Assembly: GCF_026684035.1 (NCBI RefSeq)
Contig: NZ_CP113361.1
Location: forward strand, 1,178,001 to 1,242,000
Source of the DNA: Methanogenium organophilum
GTDB taxonomy: Archaea > Halobacteriota > Methanomicrobia > Methanomicrobiales > Methanomicrobiaceae
DNA length: 64,000 bases
Direction: 5' to 3'
In this document: positions 12,509 to 61,429 of the stretch, piece after piece
Layout of the letters: the number at the start of each line of letters is the position of its first letter
How positions within the stretch are numbered: position 1 is the first letter of the stretch
The notes under the pieces: generated by a model
The model's input: only the letters and a program-made list of their open reading frames with translations
Databases searched by the model: none
What the model was told of the DNA's origin: nothing
Made by a program: the position numbers and the translations under genes

Positions 12509-13210
12509 TCACAGTAAGTCATTTAACCTGCACCAAACGGGGGGGTGATATGAGACAAGCAGGAAGGCAACCCCTCCCAGCAGAAACGAGATCGCACAGA
12601 TGGCAATACTCTGAAACTCTGAGTATATCAGAAATCCAGCAAAGATGTTAGCTACAAGCATCGCGATCACTGCCATTCCTGCAAAAGTGAGAAAAATTCC
12701 GGCCACTGCTGCTGCTCCCCGGAAGAGACGGGTGTTTCCGTTCCTCCAAGCCTGAAAAAGGCAAATAAACAGCAGAACCGCCATAGAAATCACCAGCAGT
12801 TCAGAGGGCGAGGAAAACTCAAGGCTAAACATGTTCTGAAAATATAACGGGTGGTATTGTGGCGAAAACCAACCCAGAAACGGCCAGAACCAGCTCCGTG
12901 GTTCAGCCCACATCGCATCAGCGAGCTGATGGGAGAGAATGCCTGCTGCAATAAAAAGAAGGCCGGGATGACGCCATTTTGCAAAAATAACGAGCCCTAA
13001 AAGAACCACAAGGGCACATATGGTCAGGCTATGGAAAAAGATCCGCCCGTTATCAAGGCTTGTGAGGACCAAGTGCCCGATTGGTTTATCTATGATGTCG
13101 GGGAGAAGGCTGCCTACGGCACAGTATATAAGAGCCCGGCAGTCCCTTGTGAGATACAACAGGAAGATACCGAGCGAAATACCGATTAGGAGGTGGACTG
13201 CCGGAAGCAT
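12509..13210 (-). CDS. YdjM-like membrane-bound metal-dependent hydrolase
   Basis: 233 residues. The protein fits the COG1988/YdjM family: N-terminal LPAVHLLIGISLG with His6, then GSLLPDIIDKP, FHSL and ILSHQLADAMW, which supply the conserved His and Asp residues of a possible metal site. About six hydrophobic helices follow. The family is annotated as hydrolase by similarity, but no reaction is established. Base composition is less GC-rich than the surrounding core genes. It stands alone. Confidence 0.75.
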   Translation of the reverse strand: MLPAVHLLIGISLGIFLLYLTRDCRALIYCAVGSLLPDIIDKPIGHLVLTSLDNGRIFFHSLTICALVVLLGLVIFAKWRHPGLLFIAAGILSHQLADAMWAEPRSWFWPFLGWFSPQYHPLYFQNMFSLEFSSPSELLVISMAVLLFICLFQAWRNGNTRLFRGAAAVAGIFLTFAGMAVIAMLVANIFAGFLIYSEFQSIAICAISFLLGGVAFLLVSYHPPVWCRLNDLL

Positions 13211-13473: not shown

Positions 13474-13962
13474 TTACTTGTTTGCATGAGTAACGATATG
13501 GCGCATCTCAGGGAGAATTAACTTCACCATCGCAAGACGGACAGCGGATGTAGAGCCGGGGATACAGAATACTGCACGCTGTTCAATGATGCCTGCCGCT
13601 GCACGCGAGAGAAGGACCCGCGTACCAACGTCCTCATAACTGAGCATACGGAATATTTCGCCAAATCCGTCCAGTGTCTTCTCAAAGAGGGGGGCTACAG
13701 CCTCAATCGTGCAGTCATCATGGGTAATGCCCGTACCACCGTTGATAATAATGCAGCTTGCTAATGGCAGGGCCTTGCGCAGGGCGTCACGAATGGCGAC
13801 AATGTCGTCCGGCACGACCTGATAGAACGCAACCGGGATATCAGCGGTCTCACTGAGCTCCTTAATAACTGCTCCCGAGACATCCTCTTCGGCGGTTCGG
13901 GATGTCGAAACGGTGATCACTGCGGTCTGAAGACTTACATCACTGAGATGAGAGGTGTCCAT
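13474..13962 (-). CDS. moaB: Molybdenum/tungsten cofactor protein, MoaB/Mog family
   Basis: 162 residues. The fold signature NGGTGITHDDCTIEAV at about 91-106 is the molybdopterin-binding MoaB/Mog motif; VITVSTSR near the N-terminus and the SRAAAG...FCIPGS region complete it. In archaea MoaB adenylylates molybdopterin before metal insertion, feeding formylmethanofuran dehydrogenase and formate dehydrogenase, which need Mo or W. The gene is isolated; a tandem GTGATTCAT lies about 60 nt upstream of its start. Confidence 0.9.
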   Translation of the reverse strand: MDTSHLSDVSLQTAVITVSTSRTAEEDVSGAVIKELSETADIPVAFYQVVPDDIVAIRDALRKALPLASCIIINGGTGITHDDCTIEAVAPLFEKTLDGFGEIFRMLSYEDVGTRVLLSRAAAGIIEQRAVFCIPGSTSAVRLAMVKLILPEMRHIVTHANK

Positions 13963-14285
13963 ACCAATGATGATTGCACTATACCCTCTTCAGAATACCG
14001 GTTGATTTACTCACCCGCATTGTGATTCATAGTGATTCATTCTTTATTTAGAGGATAGGTAAGGGCATGCGCTTCGCTACGTTGTTAAACAGACGCTAGC
14101 AACTACTCTCAGTCAGTTCTTCCCGATGTTTCCAACAATCCGCCGGTAATTATTCATCTCCACGTAATTGGAGCGAATCGTTAAGAGCGCATGAAAATAT
14201 CTACTTCCATATAGAAACAGAGGAAATCCTTTCCTATCCATATGGCATTATTAGGCCACATACAATGAGAAGTGCAGGGAAAAGA
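13963..14285. other. Intergenic region between moaB and the IS element
   Basis: No gene is seen. Two GTGATTCAT copies lie exactly 10 nt apart (about 14022-14040), in the likely upstream control region of moaB. The rest is unremarkable up to the IS end. Confidence 0.4.
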
Positions 14286-14310
14286 AAAAATTTTGGCTCT
14301 GTAGAAAACC
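14286..14310 (+). repeat. IS left terminal inverted repeat
   Basis: Sequence begins AAAAATTTTGGC and matches the complement of 15261-15285 with three mismatches. Confidence 0.75.
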
Positions 14311-14322
14311 TTCATCTAATTT

Positions 14323-15174
14323 TTAAAGAGTCATATTATGGAGAACCATTCTGATCTTGATTTCTTTAATTTGGTTGTAATATTTTCTCGATCGAACCGT
14401 GTCCCCATATCTTCTCTTAAGAATGGAAAAGACTGTTTCAACCATATTCCTTTGACCATATTTTTCCTGATCAAAATTCTCAAACATCTCCATCCGATAT
14501 TTTCCAGAGTAAACCTGTCCACCCCATTCACGAACCGGGATTACAGATTCAGCTCCAATAATCTCCCTAATGTATTTGTGGATTTCTTCAGAATCGTATC
14601 ATTTATCCATTGTAAAGCATGCAGATGATGTTATCCTCTGGACCTGATTTATCAGTGATTTTGCATGTTGTGAGTCATGTATTGGCAACTTCGAAAACTT
14701 CCAGGCCAAGATTGTCATTCTGTCTGAATCCACAGCAATTGATGCCTTGATGAAACTTTTTCGTGTTTTATTGATCCTTTTCGAATAGTAGTGGCTTGCA
14801 TAGGAGCTGGTAAACCCAGTTGCATCAATTGATGTAATTTTGATCTTCTCACCCTTTTGATGCAATATTCGAATCACACATTTCAGAATGATTTTTAGTG
14901 AGATGGATGGAATTCGCGTCAAAAATTTTTGGAGAGTAGTAAAATGGGGCACGTCATTCAGTTCAAGCACTTCTTGTATTGGGGTCAAAACCTGCATTAA
15001 TTCAGTAAAATCTCGATAATCCATCCCCATTTCTTCCTTCAAAATTATCATGGCCAAAAGTTGGTGTTGGGTATATTTCTTCTTTGAAAATTTGGAAGAA
15101 TGAAGAGGGATATGAGAATTTTTGATAACGCTGAGAGAGGTTTTCACAAGATTGATGTTCCTGTTCTCAGACAT
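14323..15174 (-). pseudogene. DDE transposase (IS5-like) with an in-frame TGA
   Basis: The frame runs from the ATG at 15174 to TAA at 14323 (283 codons) with one internal TGA at 14599-14601. Before it lies the first catalytic Asp (SIDATGF); the stop falls in FTMDK-stop-YDSEE, exactly where transposases of this group have DKGYDS, so a Gly codon GGA has become TGA. After it the frame continues with the catalytic Glu region NMVETVFSILKRRYG. No other damage is seen, so inactivation looks recent. Reading TGA as selenocysteine is very unlikely, since the residue expected is Gly. Confidence 0.85.
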
Positions 15175-15260
15175 TACTTAAGGAACTTCGCTCTTTATTT
15201 GTGGTTAAATATAGGCTGGAGTTCCTGTACGATTGATCTTTCGGTCGCTATTTTTCTATA

Positions 15261-15285
15261 GGATTTCTACAAGGCCAAAATTTTT
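15261..15285 (-). repeat. IS right terminal inverted repeat
   Basis: Inverted partner of 14286-14310; read on the minus strand it begins AAAAATTTTGGC. Confidence 0.75.
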
Positions 15286-15296
15286 AAGATTATCTG

Positions 15297-15441
15297 CAGG
15301 AACGAAAAATTTTGAATAGAAAAAAAATGAATCGAAGATCATTTTTCAGGAACAAAAAATTTAGGGACAAAATAACTTTTTACGAAACGAAAGGACGGGA
15401 ACCAAATCGAAGATCAATTGTTAGGAACGAAAATTTTTGAA
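15297..15441 (+). repeat. 75-nt direct repeats beside the IS element
   Basis: GGAACGAAAA-type segments start at 15299, 15349 and 15424, and ATCGAAGATCA occurs at 15331 and 15406. The last two copies of each element are 75 nt apart; the first copy appears shortened by about 25 nt. They begin 12 nt outside the IS end. Confidence 0.7.
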
Positions 15442-15901
15442 AGTCACAAGCGGAACTGGAAGAGTATGCAAAGGTGACCTTTTTTTCCGGAAGATCTCTG
15501 AAAGAACCTCTTGGATAAAGGAGGAATAATTTTAGAAATAACAGCGATATAATAGCAAAACATAATATATTTGCTTAAAATTATTAATTATAATACTATT
15601 CTCAGAATGAAAATCAGAAAAAGATATTTTGGAGAGAATTTGGAATCAACATTACAGGGAGTGGTTCTATTTTCTCCCCTAAAAGAAAACTTATTTAAAA
15701 ATTTTGTCATTTGTCTAATAAATATAGATCAAAGAACTAGAGGAAGATCTGGAAAGGAAAAGAAGTGGAATGAGATCAGCAGGACAAATCTACAAAGTCC
15801 TATATTTTACCATGGAAAAATAATCTTTGATTGGAAATTAGGATCATATTTTGATTAAATCTCTCAATTGCATTTTGGCTTTTTAATTTTTTGAACGGAT
15901 G

Positions 15902-15920
15902 CCCTTTTCTTCCAGTGGAA
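15902..15920 (-). other. Degenerate origin recognition box
   Basis: CCCTTTTCTTCCAGTGGAA resembles the reverse ORB form seen elsewhere in the window, but the spacer and one flank differ. It has the same orientation as the box at 16098. Confidence 0.45.
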
Positions 15921-16097
15921 TGATCATTTTAGGGTGTAATCTGAGAGAAAATATTAGTGGATTTATCTCCAATACAGTGGTAAAAAAGAAAAATAGCATA
16001 TTTTTGGCAAGAAAATTGATACTATACTATCAATTATAACCAAAAGGAAAAAAAGGATTGTTCAATATTCTTTTTTATAGTATCAAAATGGGGGAGA

Positions 16098-16119
16098 CAC
16101 CCCTTTGTTTCCATTGGAG
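16098..16119 (-). other. Origin recognition box
   Basis: The minus strand reads CTCCAATGGAAACAAAGGGG followed by TG. This is the archaeal ORB layout: a TTCCAnTGGAAA core, then a G-run. It points away from the boxes at 16361 and 16501. Confidence 0.75.
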
Positions 16120-16360
16120 AGTAGATTTTTTCTACACCTCATTGGGAAAATGTCAGACGAATTTCCGTTGCTTTTTTTCATTTTCACTTCTTTTTGTCAG
16201 TTAGATTCATCGGTGTTTAATTTTGTACTCTGACTACCGATTTCAAACATTGATGTACAATAATGAAGTACTTTATATAGAAAGAAAAAGAGATCATTCA
16301 TTGACTTTTCTCCTAGTACGATTAAAACCATGTTTGGTTTTCTCGGACACAGAATTTTGT
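16120..16360. other. Candidate DNA unwinding element
   Basis: About 240 nt of T-rich and A-rich sequence between oppositely oriented ORBs, with their G-runs facing outward. This is where Orc1 bound at both sides would be expected to melt DNA. The stretch at 16524-16680, with even longer A-runs, is a second candidate. Confidence 0.5.
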
Positions 16361-16384
16361 GTTCCAGTAGAAATAAAGGGGTGT
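16361..16384 (+). other. Origin recognition box
   Basis: GTTCCAGTAGAAATAAAGGG followed by GTGT: one mismatch in the TTCCAGTGGAAA core and an intact G-run. Confidence 0.8.
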
Positions 16385-16500
16385 GGGGGAAAAGGCTCCA
16401 AAAAAATTGTACTTTCTCAGATAAAAAAAGAAATTTTTTGATTGAATCTAAAATTAAGCTGAGATAAGACTATTTTTTTGAATATTTATGTATAACCCAT

Positions 16501-16523
16501 GTTCCAGTGGAAATGAAGGGGTG
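16501..16523 (+). other. Origin recognition box, best match
   Basis: GTTCCAGTGGAAATGAAGGG followed by GTG: full core and G-run. Same orientation as the box at 16361, starting 140 nt further on. Confidence 0.88.
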
Positions 16524-17171
16524 TTAATGACATTTTTAAGCCTGAAAAAAAAGAAATTATTCTGAAGGACGCAATATAGCTGTTTTTATCAGAAAAAAAC
16601 GTATTTTCTGAATGAGATGTAAAAAAATAAAAAATTTAGAGAACTGAATCAAAAAAAGAAAAAAAATATAATTTTTCGTGCGGCAGCTCTGACAAATGAA
16701 GAATAAAGATTGCCATCTTTCCATCACTCTTGTTCGGTTGATCCCTTGAACATACTTTCCCAACAGGCAGTTCAGATGTAATTTTACTGTCCTCAGATTG
16801 TCCAGATGATTAGTAGATATCTGCTATCTATCCGGTTCAGATAATTAGATAGACCTGTTCAAAATGGTGATCAACATGGAGTGACACTGATCAAACAGAA
16901 TAATTTCCAATATCTTATTTGGTTGTTCCCGACATTCTTCAGATTGTTCTTCATTTTTTCACACGTTGTTTAATTTGCTCTCTTCTTGCCTTTCTTCACA
17001 ATTTCTCCAATATATTTCTCCTGCGTTTTTTCCTGCCCTTTGTTATCATTTCTTTTTATCCCTCCTCATGGGAAACATCCTCTGACAAATCAATTCAGAT
17101 ACTTTTAGTATGGCTGGCATCTACATACATACATCCAATGGAAATACCACATATGGAGGTGACGGATTCGA

Positions 17172-18518
17172 ATGGGGGAAAATCATGAGACATCTCATCA
17201 TATATATGAAGACCGAGCAGGGGAACGGGATTCAGCCGAAGAGGATAATAGCTCTTCAATAGGCCTTTTTCAGAAATATCTCACAGATAAATCGATTTTT
17301 AAAAACCGGGAAGTGCTCCGGCATTCATACCGGCCCCATATACTTCCACACCGGAAAGAGCAGATGGATACCATCGCATCCATCCTCGCGCCGTCCATCC
17401 GGAATGAAACACCGTCCAACATTCTGATTTACGGGAAGACCGGAACCGGGAAGACAGCTTCTGTCCGGTATGTTGGGGCGGAACTTGAGAAGGCGTGCGT
17501 ATCGGTGGGGGTGGAATGCAATGTTGTACACCTCAACTGTGAGATCATCGATACCCAGTACCGGGTGTTTGCTCAAATAGCGACGCTTCTGGAAGACGAT
17601 GAGGGTCGTTCGTCTGACCGACCCCGTTCGACAATCCCGATGACCGGGTGGCCAACTGATCAGGTTTACGTCGAGCTGAAAAATCTCATAGAAGCAATCG
17701 GTGGTGTCCATATTGTTGTGCTTGACGAGATCGACAAACTGGTTAAAAAATCCGGTGATGAGACTCTCTACAATCTCTCACGCATAAACTCTGAACTGAA
17801 AAACGCGAAGGTCTGTATCGTGGGCATTTCCAATGATCTGCTCTTCACGAGTTTTCTGGACCATCGGGTTCTATCATCCCTTTCTGAAGAGGAAATCGTT
17901 TTCCCGCCGTATAATGCCCCTCAGCTGGTGGATATTCTTCAACAGCGTGCTGATTTTGCGTTTAATGAAGGGGTTCTCGATGAGAGTGTGATCCCCCTCT
18001 GTGCGGCACTTGCCGCTCAGGAACACGGAGATGCCCGTCGGGCGCTTGATCTTCTGCGGGTTTCGGGTGAGCTTACTGAACGTGAGAATTCAGAGGTTGT
18101 TACCGAAAAGCAGGTTCGTGCTGCCCGAAACAAGATTGAGGCTGACAGTCTGATTGAGTGTGTCAAGACACTTCCTACTCAGTCAAAGGCTGTACTCTAT
18201 GCGATGCTCCTCTTTCCCGAGATGAATAAACAGGTCTTTACTTCGGGAGAAGTAGTGCAGGTCTATCGCGATGTTGCCCAGGCACTTGACCTTGATATCC
18301 TTACCCATCGGCGTATCACTGATCTTATCTCAGAACTAGATATGCTCGGTGTTATCAAGGCACGTCTCGTTTCGCGCGGACGTTACGGGCGGACAAAAGA
18401 GATGTGGTTTGGTGCCGGAACGAAACGAATCCTTGAGACCCTTCAGCAGGAGGGGCGTTTTTCAGACGAACGGCTGAATCAGATTGATATATCCCGCTAT
18501 ATAACATTATTCCGGTGA
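17172..18518 (+). CDS. orc1: Orc1/Cdc6 replication initiator
   Basis: 448 residues. It is an AAA+ ATPase with Walker A YGKTGTGKT near residue 88, Walker B VVLDEIDKL near 180, the sensor region GISNDLLF, and a C-terminal winged helix (about 350-448) for DNA binding. It would bind the ORBs just upstream and load the MCM helicase. The start ATG has GGAGGTGA 12 nt upstream (17153-17160). The first 30 residues are charged and likely disordered. Its stop overlaps a GTG of the next gene, so orc1, the Lrp regulator and the aminotransferase probably form one operon. Confidence 0.96.
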   Translation: MGENHETSHHIYEDRAGERDSAEEDNSSSIGLFQKYLTDKSIFKNREVLRHSYRPHILPHRKEQMDTIASILAPSIRNETPSNILIYGKTGTGKTASVRYVGAELEKACVSVGVECNVVHLNCEIIDTQYRVFAQIATLLEDDEGRSSDRPRSTIPMTGWPTDQVYVELKNLIEAIGGVHIVVLDEIDKLVKKSGDETLYNLSRINSELKNAKVCIVGISNDLLFTSFLDHRVLSSLSEEEIVFPPYNAPQLVDILQQRADFAFNEGVLDESVIPLCAALAAQEHGDARRALDLLRVSGELTERENSEVVTEKQVRAARNKIEADSLIECVKTLPTQSKAVLYAMLLFPEMNKQVFTSGEVVQVYRDVAQALDLDILTHRRITDLISELDMLGVIKARLVSRGRYGRTKEMWFGAGTKRILETLQQEGRFSDERLNQIDISRYITLFR

Positions 18519-18526
18519 ACAAAATC

Positions 18527-19018
18527 ATGGACGCCAAAGACTGGCTGCTCCTTCGTATTCTCGAAGAAGACAGCGCACAGGAGCTGCGTGAGGTGGCGGA
18601 CCTTGCAGGGCTAAGTGAGGCTGAGGTTGAAGATCGTGTCCGTACCATGGAAGATGAGGGCATCATCCGTGGATATTGCGCGAGCATAGACTGGGAGAAA
18701 GCAGGTGAAGGAGTAGCAGCGGCGACCGTGAATCTGAAAGTAAACCCTGAACGCGACGTCGGATATGACCGTATTGCCGCTCGCATCGCCCGGTTCCCGC
18801 AGGTCAGTTCTCTGCGCCTTATCAGTGGAGAATATGATTTTGAACTTCGCGTGACCGGTCGCAATATTCAGGAAATAACCCGGTTTGTTTCAGAGCAGAT
18901 TGCTCCGATGGAACAGATCAGGGAGACCGCCACAATTCTTGTCATGAAGACTTACAAAGAGAGCGGCAGAATATTATACGACAGGAAAGAGGGAGAGAGG
19001 CTCCCGTTCTCATTTTAG
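18527..19018 (+). CDS. Lrp/AsnC-family transcriptional regulator
   Basis: 163 residues from the ATG at 18527, which has GGTGA 9 nt upstream; a GTG at 18515 overlapping the orc1 stop is an alternative. The N-terminal helix-turn-helix (about 3-55, LLLRILEEDSAQELREVADLAG) precedes a RAM-type ligand domain (SSLRLISGEYDFELRVTG). Such proteins bind amino acids and control amino-acid metabolism. It lies between orc1 and an aminotransferase whose product or substrate may be the effector. Confidence 0.9.
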   Translation: MDAKDWLLLRILEEDSAQELREVADLAGLSEAEVEDRVRTMEDEGIIRGYCASIDWEKAGEGVAAATVNLKVNPERDVGYDRIAARIARFPQVSSLRLISGEYDFELRVTGRNIQEITRFVSEQIAPMEQIRETATILVMKTYKESGRILYDRKEGERLPFSF

Positions 19019-19027
19019 GGTGTAATA

Positions 19028-20185
19028 ATGAGAGATTTTATTTCACAGCGAACTCACAGGATTCCGCCGTCCGGTATCCGCCGGTTCTTTGATATTGTAC
19101 AGGAGATGGATGATGTCATCTCCCTCGGCGTGGGCGAACCCGACTATGCGACCCCGTGGGTTGCCTGTGAGGCGGGCATCGCCTCTGTTGAACAGGGCCA
19201 GACGTCGTACACATCAAACAGCGGTCTCCCCGAGTTGCGCACCGAGGTGTCACGATACCTTTCAAAACGCTTTGGCATCCAGTACCATCCTGAGGATGAG
19301 ATGATCGTCACAACCGGCGCATCAGAAGCACTCGACATCGCAATACGGGCTGTTACCGATCCGGGTGACGAGATCCTCATCGCCGATCCCTCCTACGTAT
19401 CTTACTCTCCGGGAGTTATTCTCTCTGACGGCGTCCCGGTCCTGGTTCCCTGCCGGATGGAGGACGAATTCCGGCTGACCCCGGATGCCCTGATGGAGAA
19501 GATCACGCCGAAGTCAAAGGCGGTCATCTGCAACTTCCCGAACAACCCGTCCGGGGGAGTGATGTCACGGGAGGATTACCGTGGTATCGCGGATGTAATC
19601 TGTGACCACGACCTCCTCCTGATATCAGACGAGATCTATACAGAGATGACTTACGATGGTGAGATGACAAGTGCAGTCCAGGCGGATGGTCTCCGGGAAC
19701 GTACAATTCTCATCAATGGCTTTTCAAAGGCATATGCGATGACCGGTTGGCGGGTCGCCTATCTCTGCGCCCCAAAAAATCTCTGCGAAGCCGCTCTGAA
19801 GATTCATCAGTATGTGATGCTCTCGGCACCGACCATGAGTCAGTATGCGGCAGTTGGCGCCCTGAGGAATGCGGACCATGACCGCGAGGAGATGGTGACT
19901 GAGTACCAGATGCGCCGCAACCTCTTCGTGCGGGGCTTAAACCGTATCGGTCTCACCTGCCACCTCCCCCGCGGGGCGTTCTATGCATTTCCCTCCATTA
20001 AGGATTTTGGAATTTCTGACGTTGAATTTGCAGAAAGGCTTCTAAAGGAGCAGCATGTGGCAGTGGTTCCTGGCAGTGTCTTTGGCCCGTCCGGGGAGGG
20101 GCACCTACGCTGCGCCTACGCTGTCTCCCGCGATGACCTGCGTGAAGCCGTCAACCGGATTGAGAAATTTATCACTTCCCTGTGA
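19028..20185 (+). CDS. PLP-dependent aminotransferase, class I/II
   Basis: 385 residues. It has the fold-type I hallmarks: GVGEPDYATP near 38, YTSNSGLPELR, NFPNNPSGG near 168, SDEIYTEM, the PLP lysine in NGFSKAYAMTGWR near 235, and a C-terminal Arg region (LRCAYAVS) that binds the substrate carboxylate. It probably transaminates aspartate, aromatic or branched amino acids; the exact substrate cannot be told. It follows the Lrp gene by 9 nt, so the pair is likely co-regulated. Confidence 0.92.
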   Translation: MRDFISQRTHRIPPSGIRRFFDIVQEMDDVISLGVGEPDYATPWVACEAGIASVEQGQTSYTSNSGLPELRTEVSRYLSKRFGIQYHPEDEMIVTTGASEALDIAIRAVTDPGDEILIADPSYVSYSPGVILSDGVPVLVPCRMEDEFRLTPDALMEKITPKSKAVICNFPNNPSGGVMSREDYRGIADVICDHDLLLISDEIYTEMTYDGEMTSAVQADGLRERTILINGFSKAYAMTGWRVAYLCAPKNLCEAALKIHQYVMLSAPTMSQYAAVGALRNADHDREEMVTEYQMRRNLFVRGLNRIGLTCHLPRGAFYAFPSIKDFGISDVEFAERLLKEQHVAVVPGSVFGPSGEGHLRCAYAVSRDDLREAVNRIEKFITSL

Positions 20186-20272
20186 GGGGAAATCATCCAT
20201 TTGCTTTCCCCCCTTTTCCTTAGGAATTTTATATCCCGTTACATATTGAAATGAGGGTTTCGGGTGCTTGTT

Positions 20273-20295
20273 ACCCCTTCATTTCCAGTGGAAAT
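20273..20295 (-). other. Origin recognition box
   Basis: Plus strand ACCCCTTCATTTCCAGTGGA then AAT: intact core and G-run on the minus strand. Confidence 0.85.
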
Positions 20296-20473
20296 CCGAT
20301 GTTGCATGCGAACGTTCAAAATAGATAATCTTACCCGGATCGGTATTCTGGTTTCTGACACCCGTGAAGGGTATTGCGTGTCGATGCGGTGATCCCTTCG
20401 GGCACATTAGAAGAGCGGAGATGGTGTTGCAATTTCTTCCGATGCATATCATAAAGAATTTCGATCCGTTTCT

Positions 20474-20496
20474 ACCCCTTCATTTCCAGTGGAAAC
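20474..20496 (-). other. Origin recognition box
   Basis: Plus strand ACCCCTTCATTTCCAGTGGA then AAC, almost identical to 20273-20295. Confidence 0.87.
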
Positions 20497-20581
20497 CACT
20501 TTTGATTCAGTTCAACTGTTTTTTACATACCCTATTGTAAGATTTATGTCCTCACTGTACCAATGACTATCTGATTGAATA

Positions 20582-21583
20582 ATGAGCTGCACAATCATCG
20601 TCGGTGGGTTTTTTGGAGATGAAGGGAAGGGCAAAATTGTTGCCCATGTCGCCCATAAGGACAAACCGTCCATCATCTCCCGGGGAGGAGTCGGTCCGAA
20701 TGCCGGCCACACAGTGAAAGTAGGAGAGCAAGAATATGGCGTCAGGATGATCCCATCGGGGTTTGTTTATCCAGACGCCCGTCTTTTTATCGGTACAGGC
20801 GTGCTCGTTGATCCACGGGTTCTGAAACAGGAGATCGAGTATGTCGGAGTAGAGGGTCGGGTATTCATCGACGGGCGCTGTTCGATTATTGAAGAGCAAC
20901 ATATCGAGCGCGATCGTGCTGACGATCACCTCTCTAAGACCATCGGCTCCACCGGAACCGGGTGTGGTCCTGCAAATGTCGATCGGGTCCAGCGGGTTGC
21001 AACACAGGCAAAGGACGTGCCTGAACTTGCACAATATGTTATCGATGCCGCCCAAGAGGTTAATGATGCCTTAGATCGCGGCGAAACGGTAATTCTGGAA
21101 GGGACACAGGGATTTGGCATCTCCCTCTACTTCGGAACGTATCCCTTTGTTACCTCCAAGGACACCTCGGCATCCCAGATTGCTGCGGACAATGGTGTCG
21201 GGCCAACCCGTATCGATGATGTCATCGTTGTCTTCAAGGCTTACCCGACACGGGTCGGTGAAGGTCCTTTCGGAACTGAGATGACCAAAGAAGAGTCCCA
21301 CGCCCTTGGTATTGAGGAGTTTGGCACTGTCACCCATCGCGAACGGCGTATCGGTGGTTGGGACGGCAAGATGGCCCGGTACTCTGCGATGATCAACGGC
21401 TGCACCATTGCGGCCATCACCGGCATCGACAACGTCGATGAGGCATGCTACGGAGCGACCGAGTACAGCCAACTGACCGAGAAGGCACTTGCTTTCATTC
21501 GGCAGGCAGAAGAGGATATCGGTGTACCCGTTAAACTCATCTCAACCGGACCCGAGATGACCCAGATAATCGATATCCGGTGA
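20582..21583 (+). CDS. purA: Adenylosuccinate synthetase
   Basis: 333 residues, the short archaeal form (bacterial enzymes have about 430). It joins IMP and aspartate using GTP on the way to AMP. The N-terminal P-loop is GGFFGDEGKGK, followed by SRGGVGPNAGHTV; GSTGTGCGPANVDR, EGTQGFGISLYFGTYP and GVGPTRIDDV are the IMP and magnesium-site regions. No ribosome site precedes the ATG, which fits a near-leaderless message from the TATA at 20542. Confidence 0.96.
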   Translation: MSCTIIVGGFFGDEGKGKIVAHVAHKDKPSIISRGGVGPNAGHTVKVGEQEYGVRMIPSGFVYPDARLFIGTGVLVDPRVLKQEIEYVGVEGRVFIDGRCSIIEEQHIERDRADDHLSKTIGSTGTGCGPANVDRVQRVATQAKDVPELAQYVIDAAQEVNDALDRGETVILEGTQGFGISLYFGTYPFVTSKDTSASQIAADNGVGPTRIDDVIVVFKAYPTRVGEGPFGTEMTKEESHALGIEEFGTVTHRERRIGGWDGKMARYSAMINGCTIAAITGIDNVDEACYGATEYSQLTEKALAFIRQAEEDIGVPVKLISTGPEMTQIIDIR

Positions 21584-58427: not shown

Positions 58428-58979
58428 TTATCGGTACACGGCAGAGAGGGCGACTCGTTCTGCGATAAGTTCGGGGAGCCGTTGTGTGCCGATGGTGGCA
58501 AGTTCCGTTTCAGTGATGGAGAAGTCCTGCATCAGGCGTGAACGTTTCTCTGCACAAATGGGTTCTGTCCCTGCGGGTGGGGCAGGAGGGAGGGTAATAC
58601 CGGGTATTCTGGCGATTTCGTCTGCTGCATTCTCGACTGCTGGCACTATAACCACCCAGAGAGGCATCTTCCCCTTCTGTGCGCCGAATTTGGCAGCAAC
58701 ACTTGTCTGTCGGCTAGCTGCCACCCAGAGGAGCAGTTCCATCTCAAAGGACCGTGCGACAGGGTTTTTGTCCGTAAACCATGTCCGACAGGCATGGGCG
58801 AGTGCGGCATCCAGGTGTAGGCGACCTGCAACCCGGTCAGCATTAATACAGATGATATGGGCATCGATGCGGTCTGCGGTGGCATGTACGGCCGAAAGAA
58901 ACTCCTGAATGTCAGATATTTCCGCATTGGCAAAGAGGATCGCATGAGTGGGCATAAGGGGGCCTGCTACATTATTCAT
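58428..58979 (-). CDS. cgi121: KEOPS complex subunit Cgi121
   Basis: 183 residues from the ATG at 58979, which overlaps the Hel308 stop by 8 nt and has GGGGGAGAGG just upstream. HIICINADRVAGRLHLDAALAHA and LLLWVAASRQTSVAAKFGAQKG are the family regions. Cgi121 is the tRNA-binding KEOPS subunit for the t6A modification at position 37. Co-transcription with hel308 is likely from the overlap. Confidence 0.88.
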   Translation of the reverse strand: MNNVAGPLMPTHAILFANAEISDIQEFLSAVHATADRIDAHIICINADRVAGRLHLDAALAHACRTWFTDKNPVARSFEMELLLWVAASRQTSVAAKFGAQKGKMPLWVVIVPAVENAADEIARIPGITLPPAPPAGTEPICAEKRSRLMQDFSITETELATIGTQRLPELIAERVALSAVYR

Positions 58980-61251
58980 CTGCCTCTCCCCCAAATGAGA
59001 AGAGCGACCTTTGTGCGCCTGGTCCTTCTTCTGTCCCTACAGTGGCAATATCTTCTGCCGCCCCGGTGTTCTGTCCACTCTGTCCTTTCTCTGTTGGCTC
59101 GTTCTCCCCATTCCGTGCGGCCATACGTTCTGCAAGAGGATCCCTGCGGCCCCTGCCACGTTTCATGGTCTTTGCGGCCCGAATAATACTCTCTGCTGTT
59201 TTTCCGCCTACGATGCTGCCGACAAAGGCGGGGTCTGCAGTGAGAAGTGCTTCAGGGCTGGTGATGTTGTTTGTGAAGAGGCGGCGTGCCCGAACCCGCC
59301 CGATGCCTTTTATGCGGACCAGAGGAATTAACTCATGACGGATGCCGTGACGGATCCGCAGGGTGGTTTCCTCCACTCCGTTGCGGTGTTCAGGCGAGAA
59401 AAGGCGTGCCAGCCTTCCGGAGGCATGAAGCAGCCACCCTATTCCCTCTACTGCATTATGGATGTCACCCGGGCCGACGCCGTAGCGGGTGCAGATGGTA
59501 TCGTCACCTGTCTCGTCCATCCAGTCGGAGAGGAGCATTGCGGTCTTAAGGCTGCGGAAGAATTCCTCCATCTCATCGTAGGAGAACTCGGTTCTGAACT
59601 CCTCTTCGTGGTCATAGAAGAACTTCTCCAGCATGGCCAGGTCATTTTTCTTTACATACAGAGTGAACATATCCGGTGTCATGCAGAGCAGCTGGAGAAG
59701 GGCTAAATCAGTGAGTTCTCCATCTTCCCGGAGTGCTGCGGTGATCATCTCGGCTGAGCGGGGGTCAATGTAGAGCCTGCTCGTCAGCTCACCGTATTCG
59801 GTTGCATGCAGCATACCGGAGAGGTCCGTCACCATCTCGGCGCCCGTGAGAAATGAAAGGGCATCGTTCAGTGTCCGGGAAAGGGCCCGTTTTCCGGTGT
59901 GCTGGTGGGCATAGAAGGTCTTCTCCAGAAATTCCATCAGTTCGTCACGGGAACGGGCAAAGCCGGTTGCGACAAGGGAGAGGATGTGTGCTGTGAGGAT
60001 ACCCTGTTCTCCACATCCGGAGCGGACCTCCTCGTCAGGTGCCTCTACATACTCCTCGTAGAGATCATTTACCGCATATTCTGATTTTGCAATAAGAATG
60101 GCCTCACCATAGGGATCAAGGTGCGGCCGTCCGGCCCTCCCTGCCATCTGCCGGTATTCCCGTACCGGTATTGGCCGCATTCCTTCTCCACCGACGTAGC
60201 GGAGATAATCACGGATGATTACCCGGCGTGCGGGAAGGTTTAGGCCTGCCGCGAGTGTGGGAGTAGATGAGATCGACTTGATAAATCCACTCCGGAAACC
60301 CTCTTCAACGAGTGTCCGCTGCATGCGGTTCATTCCGGCATGATGGAAGGCCGCACCGTTTCTCACACAGGCAGCAAGAGTACGGCCCATATCAGTCTCG
60401 GCAGCGGCTTCGAGTTTCTCTGCAATACTGTCCAGCACTGCATGCTCTGATTTCAGGGCCGAAGCCGCCCGTTTTGCGTATCCTTCTGCATTGCGCCGGG
60501 ATGAGACAAAGACGAGGCACTGCCCCCCGTCTGCCACACAGTCCAGAAGCAGATTGATGTCTTCGGTCTTTGCAGGAGAAGGAATCTCACGCTCCTCATC
60601 GTTAAAGTAGATCATATTGCGATAGCAAATACCCTCCCTGAGGTCCACCGGACGCCAGTCTGAGGTGATAAGGTCTGCCCCCAGCCAGCCCGCCAGTTCC
60701 TTAGGGTTGCCGATAGTTGCGGAGAGAGCGATTACCTGCATGTTCGGAGTGGCATGGCGCAGTTTGGTAATCACCATTTCAAGGGTGGGTCCGCGTGACT
60801 CATCGTCGATAAGGTGTACCTCGTCAACGACGAGGCAGGAGACACGGGATAGCCAGGGGGCGCCGTTTCTGAGGAGAGAGTCCACTTTCTCTGAAGTGGC
60901 GATCACGATGTCATTTGCGCCAAGGCGTGCCTCCTTTTGATCATAATCCCCGGTGGCGACACCGATAGCACAGCCCTTGTTTGCAAATTCATGGGCCTTT
61001 TCTGTTGCAAGTGCTTTTAATGGGACAATGTAGAGGCTCATCCCCCCCCGTGCAATGGCGGCATGCATCGCCATCTCTGCAATCAGGGTCTTTCCGGATG
61101 CAGTGGGAATGGCAACCAGCAGATCGGCACCTTCAAGCAGCCCTTTTTCAATGCACTCGTTCTGGGGCGGGTACAGGAATTCGATACCTTTATCTTTAAT
61201 ATTCTGTTTAAATGCCTCAGGCAGTGGCAAATCAGAAAAATGCAAAGGCAC
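58972..61251 (-). CDS. hel308: ATP-dependent DNA helicase Hel308
   Basis: 759 residues. Superfamily 2 motifs in order: AIPTASGKT near 48 (I), VPLKALATEK (Ia), DEVHLID near 143 (II), LSATIGNP near 175 (III), VFVSSRR near 240 (IV), GLNLPARRVIIRD (V) and YRQMAGRAGRP (VI). A winged helix, a ratchet and a helix-hairpin-helix (RIKGIGRVRARRLF) follow. It unwinds lagging strands at stalled forks. The last 50 residues are an acidic linker ending in QRSLFSF at 747-753, a PCNA-interacting-peptide match. Confidence 0.96.
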   Translation of the reverse strand: MPLHFSDLPLPEAFKQNIKDKGIEFLYPPQNECIEKGLLEGADLLVAIPTASGKTLIAEMAMHAAIARGGMSLYIVPLKALATEKAHEFANKGCAIGVATGDYDQKEARLGANDIVIATSEKVDSLLRNGAPWLSRVSCLVVDEVHLIDDESRGPTLEMVITKLRHATPNMQVIALSATIGNPKELAGWLGADLITSDWRPVDLREGICYRNMIYFNDEEREIPSPAKTEDINLLLDCVADGGQCLVFVSSRRNAEGYAKRAASALKSEHAVLDSIAEKLEAAAETDMGRTLAACVRNGAAFHHAGMNRMQRTLVEEGFRSGFIKSISSTPTLAAGLNLPARRVIIRDYLRYVGGEGMRPIPVREYRQMAGRAGRPHLDPYGEAILIAKSEYAVNDLYEEYVEAPDEEVRSGCGEQGILTAHILSLVATGFARSRDELMEFLEKTFYAHQHTGKRALSRTLNDALSFLTGAEMVTDLSGMLHATEYGELTSRLYIDPRSAEMITAALREDGELTDLALLQLLCMTPDMFTLYVKKNDLAMLEKFFYDHEEEFRTEFSYDEMEEFFRSLKTAMLLSDWMDETGDDTICTRYGVGPGDIHNAVEGIGWLLHASGRLARLFSPEHRNGVEETTLRIRHGIRHELIPLVRIKGIGRVRARRLFTNNITSPEALLTADPAFVGSIVGGKTAESIIRAAKTMKRGRGRRDPLAERMAARNGENEPTEKGQSGQNTGAAEDIATVGTEEGPGAQRSLFSFGGEADE

Positions 61252-61322
61252 CCCTTCTTTTCCTGTGTAAAAGAGATTTAATTGCTCTATATGTCATGAA
61301 CGGGCAGAATGTGGGTATGTAT

Positions 61323-61337
61323 GTTCCAGTGGAAATC
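61323..61337 (+). other. Isolated ORB-like core
   Basis: GTTCCAGTGGAAATC has the full ORB core seen near orc1 but lacks the G-run (CATCCG instead). It lies in the spacer upstream of hel308. Confidence 0.3.
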
Positions 61338-61429
61338 ATCCGTCCTTTCCTGTATTTTTGATATTCCCGTGGTTCGGTGGTCTTTTTAGTATGTAATATG
61401 CTCAAAATATTTATATGATGATATGGGGG

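Follow-up and report, generated by a model that had tools for sequence, protein, structure and literature searches.

A predicted chromosomal replication origin of Methanogenium, and origin recognition boxes that recur outside it in Methanomicrobiales

The window analysed here is a 64,000-nucleotide stretch of the Methanogenium organophilum genome (positions 1178001-1242000 of a single contig of 2,648,164 bp). It carries a gene for an ORC1-type initiator, orc1, which adjoins a gene for an Lrp/AsnC-type regulator and is followed by an aminotransferase gene, aat (Table 1). The best solved relatives of the Orc1 protein are PDB 2qby_A (Cdc6 homolog 1, 1.4e-101) and 2v1u_A (1.6e-98), both aligned over nearly its whole length. 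Upstream of orc1, in an intergenic stretch, are four origin recognition boxes (ORBs) at genome position 1.194 Mb. Between moaB and these boxes there is an apparent remnant of an IS5-type element (14273-15298) with imperfect 39-nt inverted repeats at 14273-14311 and 15260-15298; its transposase ORF (14599-15174, minus strand) matches part of NF033579 only, below the cut-off. Three imperfect direct repeats of AGGAACGAAAAATTTTGAA, partly with AATCGAAGATCA, lie just left of the origin (15298-15441). No RNA family was found at E<=1 in 13900-21000.

Table 1 Features of the window at the predicted origin, downstream of aat and at hel308 (mm, mismatches to the ORB search pattern).
Feature	Position	Strand	Basis or remarks
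Outer left ORB of oriC, degenerate (ends GGGC)	15901..15919	-	2 mm
Inner left ORB, outward G-run	16100..16118	-	0 mm
AT-rich gap between inner ORBs, presumed unwinding region	16119..16362	.	244 nt, 32% GC
Genus-conserved promoter-like block GTACAATAATGAAGTACTTTATATA (GTACAATAATGAAGTACTTTATATAG) inside right ORB	16255..16300	+	nearly invariant, 4-species alignment
Inner right ORB, then TGTGGGGG	16363..16381	+	1 mm
Outer right ORB	16503..16521	+	0 mm
orc1 (ORC1-type initiator)	17172..18518	+	NCBIfam NF001625 2.5e-174, above cut-off
Lrp/AsnC-type regulator gene adjoining orc1	18515..19018	+	NCBIfam matches all below cut-offs; synteny
Aminotransferase gene (aat), third of run	19028..20185	+	NCBIfam aminotransferase models, best below its cut-off; order-wide synteny with orc1
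Downstream ORB 1	20274..20292	-	0 mm
Downstream ORB 2, 201 nt from ORB 1	20475..20493	-	0 mm
hel308-type ATP-dependent DNA helicase gene (mechanical GTG start at 61251)	58972..61251	-	NCBIfam NF002654 1e-303, above cut-off
ORB-like site directly 5' of hel308, same strand	61251..61269	-	2 mm

We searched the window for the ORB pattern TCCANTGGAAANNAAGGGG, allowing up to three mismatches, with 100 shuffles as a control. The search returned seven matches, against a shuffle mean of 0.79 (sd 1.00, largest 4). Four of the seven are the boxes that a first-pass annotation had reported: two reverse and two forward ORBs, re-found at the claimed positions in the order '-', '-', '+', '+', the last one ending the claimed 650 nt before the orc1 start. 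The other three comprise two exact minus-strand ORBs downstream of aat and the site with two mismatches before hel308. Across the whole genome (2.65 Mb), all five ORBs with at most one mismatch fall within 4.4 kb at the origin (reversed control pattern, none). At up to two mismatches there are 12, of which six lie within 4.6 kb at the origin, one at hel308 and five are scattered (reversed control, 3). Given the seven window matches against the 0.79 expected and genome-wide counts above the control, chance does not explain the boxes. The motif published for Methanomicrobia with Ori-Finder 2 and DoriC, TCCA[GC]T[GT]GAAA[CT][AG]A[AT]GGGGT (PMC4164010), is matched exactly at 16503, 20274 and 20475. 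The first-pass annotation had read the core and G-run as the euryarchaeal ORB layout, and this reading holds: the G-runs point outwards as in Haloarcula hispanica oriC1, and the box agrees with the Methanomicrobia motif. Its AT-rich stretch of about 240 nt was also recovered, at 244 nt and 32.0% GC; the surrounding intergenic stretch (15180-17171) has the same 32.0% GC (window, 51.4%), and the gap is therefore no distinct AT peak.

Within Methanogenium, the box module is rigid, while the spacing from module to orc1 ranges between about 0.4 and 1.2 kb. The left boxes are 196-199 nt apart in the window, genome G005 and M. marinum; the starts of the inner '-' and '+' ORBs are separated by 260-264 nt in these three and in G006 (loci L063, L065 and L250), and the right boxes by 139-141 nt in six Methanogenium genomes. 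The exception is M. cariaci, with 632 nt between the left and inner right boxes. The inner left ORB was aligned in three other Methanogenium, as was a comparable degenerate box at the outer left position. A regular expression for the core of the conserved block at 16255-16300 matches the window, G004 (Methanogenium sp. MK-MG, L246), G005 (L063), G006 (Methanogenium sp. CSMAG_280, L248) and M. marinum (L250), and M. cariaci (L247) matches it without the first GTAC. The block core was found in no locus of the sample searched beyond these Methanogenium ones, and the block has one copy in its own genome. We infer a promoter role for it; it could serve an origin transcript, act as the orc1 promoter or form part of the unwinding element.

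We then compared 77 loci aligned on orc1, drawn from 116 genomes of the order that carry orc1; counts in this sample follow genome relatedness. Families and genera are labelled as f4 (Methanoculleus), f5 (Methanoregulaceae), f6-g12 (Methanocalculus), f3 (probably Methanofollis) and f6-g19 (probably Methanocorpusculum). The inverted-pair count used 73 loci and the downstream count 76 (L067 lacked cover); L079 was left out. The order moaB(-), ORBs, orc1-lrp-aat(+) is common among the 77 loci. Of the 73 loci with enough upstream sequence, 72 have a '-' ORB followed by a '+' ORB ahead of the orthologous orc1; this count took matches of up to three mismatches and kept in some '-', '+' pairs 10 nt apart that are single palindromic sites. 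ORBs with at most one mismatch number 126 across 26 order genomes, with 109 within 11 kb of orc1 and 17 elsewhere; the reversed pattern gave one match in all 26 genomes together. The flanks of 219 upstream ORBs carry 0.09-0.12 bits per column, near background. The boxes themselves carry 1.61 bits upstream of orc1, 1.77 downstream and 1.48 at hel308, values that are high partly by construction, as the boxes were chosen through a pattern match. Several origin ORBs (L069, L070, L071, L074 and L075) end in an extended G-run such as GGGGTGGGGG, and the ORB nearest orc1 is without one in L069, L070, L071 and L074; papers on haloarchaea call the extended G-string halophile-specific.

A change of skew at this position had been set beforehand as a check on the origin, and sampled GC and AT skew both switch sign there. 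Mean GC skew goes from -0.039 on the left (22 samples) to +0.049 on the right (23 samples), and mean AT skew from +0.047 to -0.040. The best two-breakpoint fit places switches at 1.16-1.20 Mb and 2.46-2.50 Mb, about half a genome apart; it draws on 45 samples covering about 20% of the genome, of which single ones deviate, and its terminus position is a fitted one. The genome encodes three further Orc1/Cdc6 homologues (at 523384, 1626676 and 1869676; 25-31% identical), and the true origin could in principle lie by one of them, or elsewhere, or be one of several. We consider this highly improbable, as the whole-genome scan at up to two mismatches found no ORB near any of the three paralogues, and the 45 samples show no sustained further skew switch, though single samples deviate. 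The stretch 15901-16521 is thus very probably the chromosomal replication origin of this Methanogenium species. The skew switch and the conservation of the ORB pair support the strong origin prediction of the first-pass annotation, which was incomplete in that it overlooked the downstream doublet and the ORB before hel308.

By analogy with studied archaeal origins, Orc1, encoded 650 nt downstream, would bind the two left and two right ORBs in a set orientation, with the cores facing the AT-rich gap and the G-runs facing away from it. The gap would be the site of unwinding. Bound Orc1 would then recruit MCM, and two forks would leave the gap in opposite directions.

The origin is almost certainly of the standard euryarchaeal kind, with outward-facing G-runs as the usual layout. 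In the oriC1-cdc6A region of H. hispanica, inverted ORBs likewise enclose an AT-rich region ahead of the initiator gene. The G-strings mutated there, CCCCCC (I, which we read as the left one) and GGGGGGGG (II), sit at ORB ends and are read as outward-facing (PMC3936714). Unlike in that origin, the inner right box of Methanogenium has an extra G-run on its outer side; the Methanogenium origin is also a prediction from sequence. Similarly, ORB2 and ORB3 of Sulfolobus islandicus oriC1 are inverted about an AT-rich region near orc1-1, and both are needed there (PMC12141716). The Sulfolobus origin differs in its 130-bp ORB3-DUE-ORB2 arrangement and central ucm motif (PMC12141716), whereas in Methanogenium the inner ORBs span 282 bp from outer end to outer end, with two boxes per side and a different, genus-specific conserved block. 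In itself the origin is unremarkable and gives one more well-supported map position, in a genus of methanogens.

Outside the origin, the two downstream ORBs, which share a perfect 23-nt repeat, follow the orc1-lrp-aat run: both are between aat and purA, about 3.1 kb past the start of orc1. A '-' ORB (up to two mismatches) within 700 nt after aat is present in 51 of the 76 covered order loci. It occurs in every locus of f1 (16/16), f2 (4/4), f3 (8/8), f4 (18/18) and f6-g19 (5/5), 51/51 together, and is missing only from family f5 (0/21) and genus f6-g12 (0/4), 0/25 together. Because all 21 f5 and all four f6-g12 loci lack them, the downstream ORBs are not indispensable. Where present, the box stays with aat whatever follows, be it purA, pdxS or a purA some 5 kb further on, and with 15 genera represented by one sequence each its flanks are near background, at 0.26 bits per column. 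In f4, 16 of the 18 loci have at least two downstream ORBs, mostly '-' then '+' and about 218 nt apart. In f6-g19 (L149), the gene after aat encodes the PolD small subunit (NF003118, 1.1e-184), and the ORB is in the short gap before that gene.

We also scanned 20 orc1 loci from other families of the phylum at up to two mismatches. At least one ORB was found in 16 of them, mostly near orc1; the four f9 loci had none at this threshold. ORBs downstream of the orc1 start occur in seven of the 20 (L178, L183, L185, L193, L195, L196 and L197), with two each in L193 (at 1.4 and 4.1 kb) and L195 (a '-', '+' pair at 4.0 kb). In view of these seven loci, we do not claim that downstream ORBs are confined to the Methanomicrobiales; they may extend beyond this order, as has been published for haloarchaea.

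The closest published counterpart is H. hispanica oriC2D, where extra ORBs also lie downstream of an initiator gene, away from the origin (PMC3936714). This element, downstream of cdc6E, represses oriC2, probably by Cdc6 titration, and resisted deletion on its own; in Halorubrum lacusprofundi, oriC2D has three ORBs (PMC3936714). The Methanogenium doublet shares with it an ORB cluster downstream of the initiator gene and outside the origin, with two ORBs beyond lrp and aat. It lacks the high ORB density directly after the initiator gene: oriC2D has 11 ORBs in 722 bp directly after cdc6E and serves oriC2 (PMC3936714), whereas Methanogenium has two ORBs in 396 nt, about 200 bp apart and two genes further on, with a single origin and recurrence in several families. 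Because it has two boxes rather than eleven and is separated from orc1 by two genes, the doublet is not filed as an oriC2D-type member. That it works like Haloarcula oriC2D, as a site that buffers Orc1 by titration, is the reading we favour, at a strength somewhat short of even.

Two other readings of the downstream boxes were weighed against buffering. The stretch 20274-20493 might be a second, possibly dormant origin, since the '-' then '+' pair of f4 has the outward layout of an origin. In the window and the other f1 loci with two ORBs, however, the second ORB is also '-', so that there is no inverted pair, and the doublet stretch has 37-48% GC against 32% at oriC. H. hispanica oriC2D, also downstream of its initiator gene, is without autonomous replication activity (PMC3936714), and we regard a second origin as quite improbable. 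A better case, although still a rather unlikely one, can be made that the boxes are left over from an ancestral orc1-...-dp1 arrangement and were kept when purA or other genes replaced dp1. The f6-g19 box precedes the PolD small-subunit gene, cdc6-DP1 linkage has been published, and ORB or mini-ORB repeats occur in the DP1 gene of Thermococcales (PMC2643942). A relic would be expected to decay, but the box (up to two mismatches) is kept in all 51 loci of f1-f4 and f6-g19 between flanks near background, and the kept boxes are followed by purA, pdxS or other genes. Moreover, two f6-g12 loci (L145 and L147) have a PolD-like ORF after aat but no ORB, so that gene and box are not strictly tied.

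The remaining window match lies at the start of hel308, 40 kb beyond orc1. The helicase scores 2.5e-162 against the Hel308 model NF040935, below the cut-off of that model, and the helicase of L068 is likewise above the cut-off for NF002654 and below it for the Hel308 model. An ORB-like site is at the same spot in all four Methanogenium hel308 genes examined, with hel308-orc1 distances of 28-43 kb, and two f3 genomes (G018 and G023) also keep the box with hel308 about 11 kb from orc1. A same-strand ORB within 120 nt upstream of hel308 was found in 52 of 73 Methanomicrobiales genomes with a located hel308 start at up to two mismatches and in 58 at up to three, which leaves 21 and 15 genomes without one; this sample consists mainly of genes within about 8 kb of orc1 plus loci from hel308 searches, with f3 and f5 under-sampled. 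By family, the counts at up to two mismatches are 11/16 in f1, 1/4 in f2, 5/5 in f3, 18/18 in f4, 8/21 in f5 and 9/9 in f6. None of 15 outgroup genomes (four other families of the phylum, none of them f9 or haloarchaea-like) has the box, even at up to three mismatches. The two flanks of the hel308 box are near background as well, at 0.24 and 0.35 bits per column in a set of 19 genera, each represented by one sequence selected at up to three mismatches. On the '-' strand, a second ORB core that lacks a G-run (ATTTCCACTGGAAC) occupies window 61325-61338, with the hel308 box about 60 nt downstream of it.

In many relatives a single '+' ORB is found 3.7-6.7 kb ahead of orc1; in the 20 loci inspected, this ORB is at the start of a 712-867-aa ORF. 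We considered this ORB as a symmetric partner of the doublet and rejected the idea, as the box travels with the gene and is the hel308 element. The ORF was also considered as mcm and rejected, as MCM is at 2.47 Mb and the gene is of hel308 type. Since the box goes with hel308 also where the gene lies further from orc1, the best reading of it is as a control element for this gene.

The same letters could instead be a ribosome-binding sequence or encode a conserved N-terminal peptide. When the ORB is at -24, its AAGGGG is at a Shine-Dalgarno-like distance, and 42 of 53 hel308 ORBs are in frame with hel308, mostly at -24, which would suit either a ribosome site or an N-terminal extension. The other 11 boxes are out of frame, however, and seven have an in-frame stop between box and start, which weakens both explanations. 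The left half of the box, which lies beyond any ribosome site, is also kept, and in f5 genome G062 the ORB is at -37 and a separate GGAGGTG is nearer the start. Across 20 sampled stretches of the genome that holds the window, none of 260 mechanically called ORF starts has an ORB even at up to three mismatches, and neither does any of the 15 outgroup hel308 genes. We consider a ribosome-binding or coding role in place of an Orc1 box unlikely.

An initiator box upstream of hel308 that recurs, and is kept with the gene 11-43 kb from orc1, is what an Orc1-controlled promoter would present. Control of hel308 by Orc1 through the ORB at the gene start is a reading we take seriously without holding it to be established, at a strength close to even. 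The position just before the start suggests an arrangement that would suit repression by Orc1. In the proposed mechanism, Orc1 would repress or time transcription of this fork-repair helicase through the predicted ORB; Hel308 has been proposed to act at blocked forks (PMC7776575). A precedent for an Orc1-type protein as a transcription regulator at promoters is Orc1-2 of Saccharolobus islandicus (PMC9738581). That protein is a non-initiator and binds ANTTTC (PMC9738581), whereas the regulator suggested in Methanogenium is the initiator-type Orc1, acting through an origin box. In the Ori-Finder 2 and DoriC work, the boxes serve origin finding, and the passages concerned are without mention of hel308 (PMC4164010). 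Among the matches listed in a literature search (titles and abstract openings), none dealt with ORBs before hel308 or with a downstream ORB doublet in Methanomicrobiales.

The origin, the doublet and the hel308 ORB are probably parts of one recognition system. Beyond the origin, boxes of the origin type are found repeatedly at two set positions, and one of these remains with its gene even where that gene is far off; such ORB stations, recurring across the order, are apparently new, and one is apparently regulatory. We tentatively propose, as a possibility rather than an expectation, that Orc1 of Methanomicrobiales is also a gene regulator, with the hel308 box tying the helicase level to Orc1 activity and the remote doublet providing self-buffering. 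If true, origin firing, initiator dosage and fork repair would all be coupled through one protein, much as bacterial DnaA works through datA and a regulon of its own. The datA site is mentioned in PMC3936714 and PMC4010727. Two questions become directly testable in archaea. One is whether an initiator of the Orc1 type controls transcription as well, by way of its own box; the other is whether initiation is limited by initiator titration in archaea that are not halophiles.

A general Orc1 regulon was considered and rejected. Among the 17 far ORBs (at most one mismatch, more than 11 kb from orc1, 26 genomes), one is the hel308 box of G005; the other 16 have no gene common to all, as judged by eye, and we claim no target beyond hel308. 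Ten of the 17 are in three f5 genomes (G062, G077 and G118). The family that houses these ten (L331-L340), Methanoregulaceae, is without the downstream doublet. G085 and G042 share one box sequence. G062 and G077 share TCCAGTGGAAGGAAAGGGGTATAAAAG, and a similar-looking ORF, again judged by eye, is downstream of both boxes. In Methanocalculus G021 (L342:2050), the first third of a 239-aa ORF contains an ORB; this ORF resembles the membrane protein at window 12509-13210.
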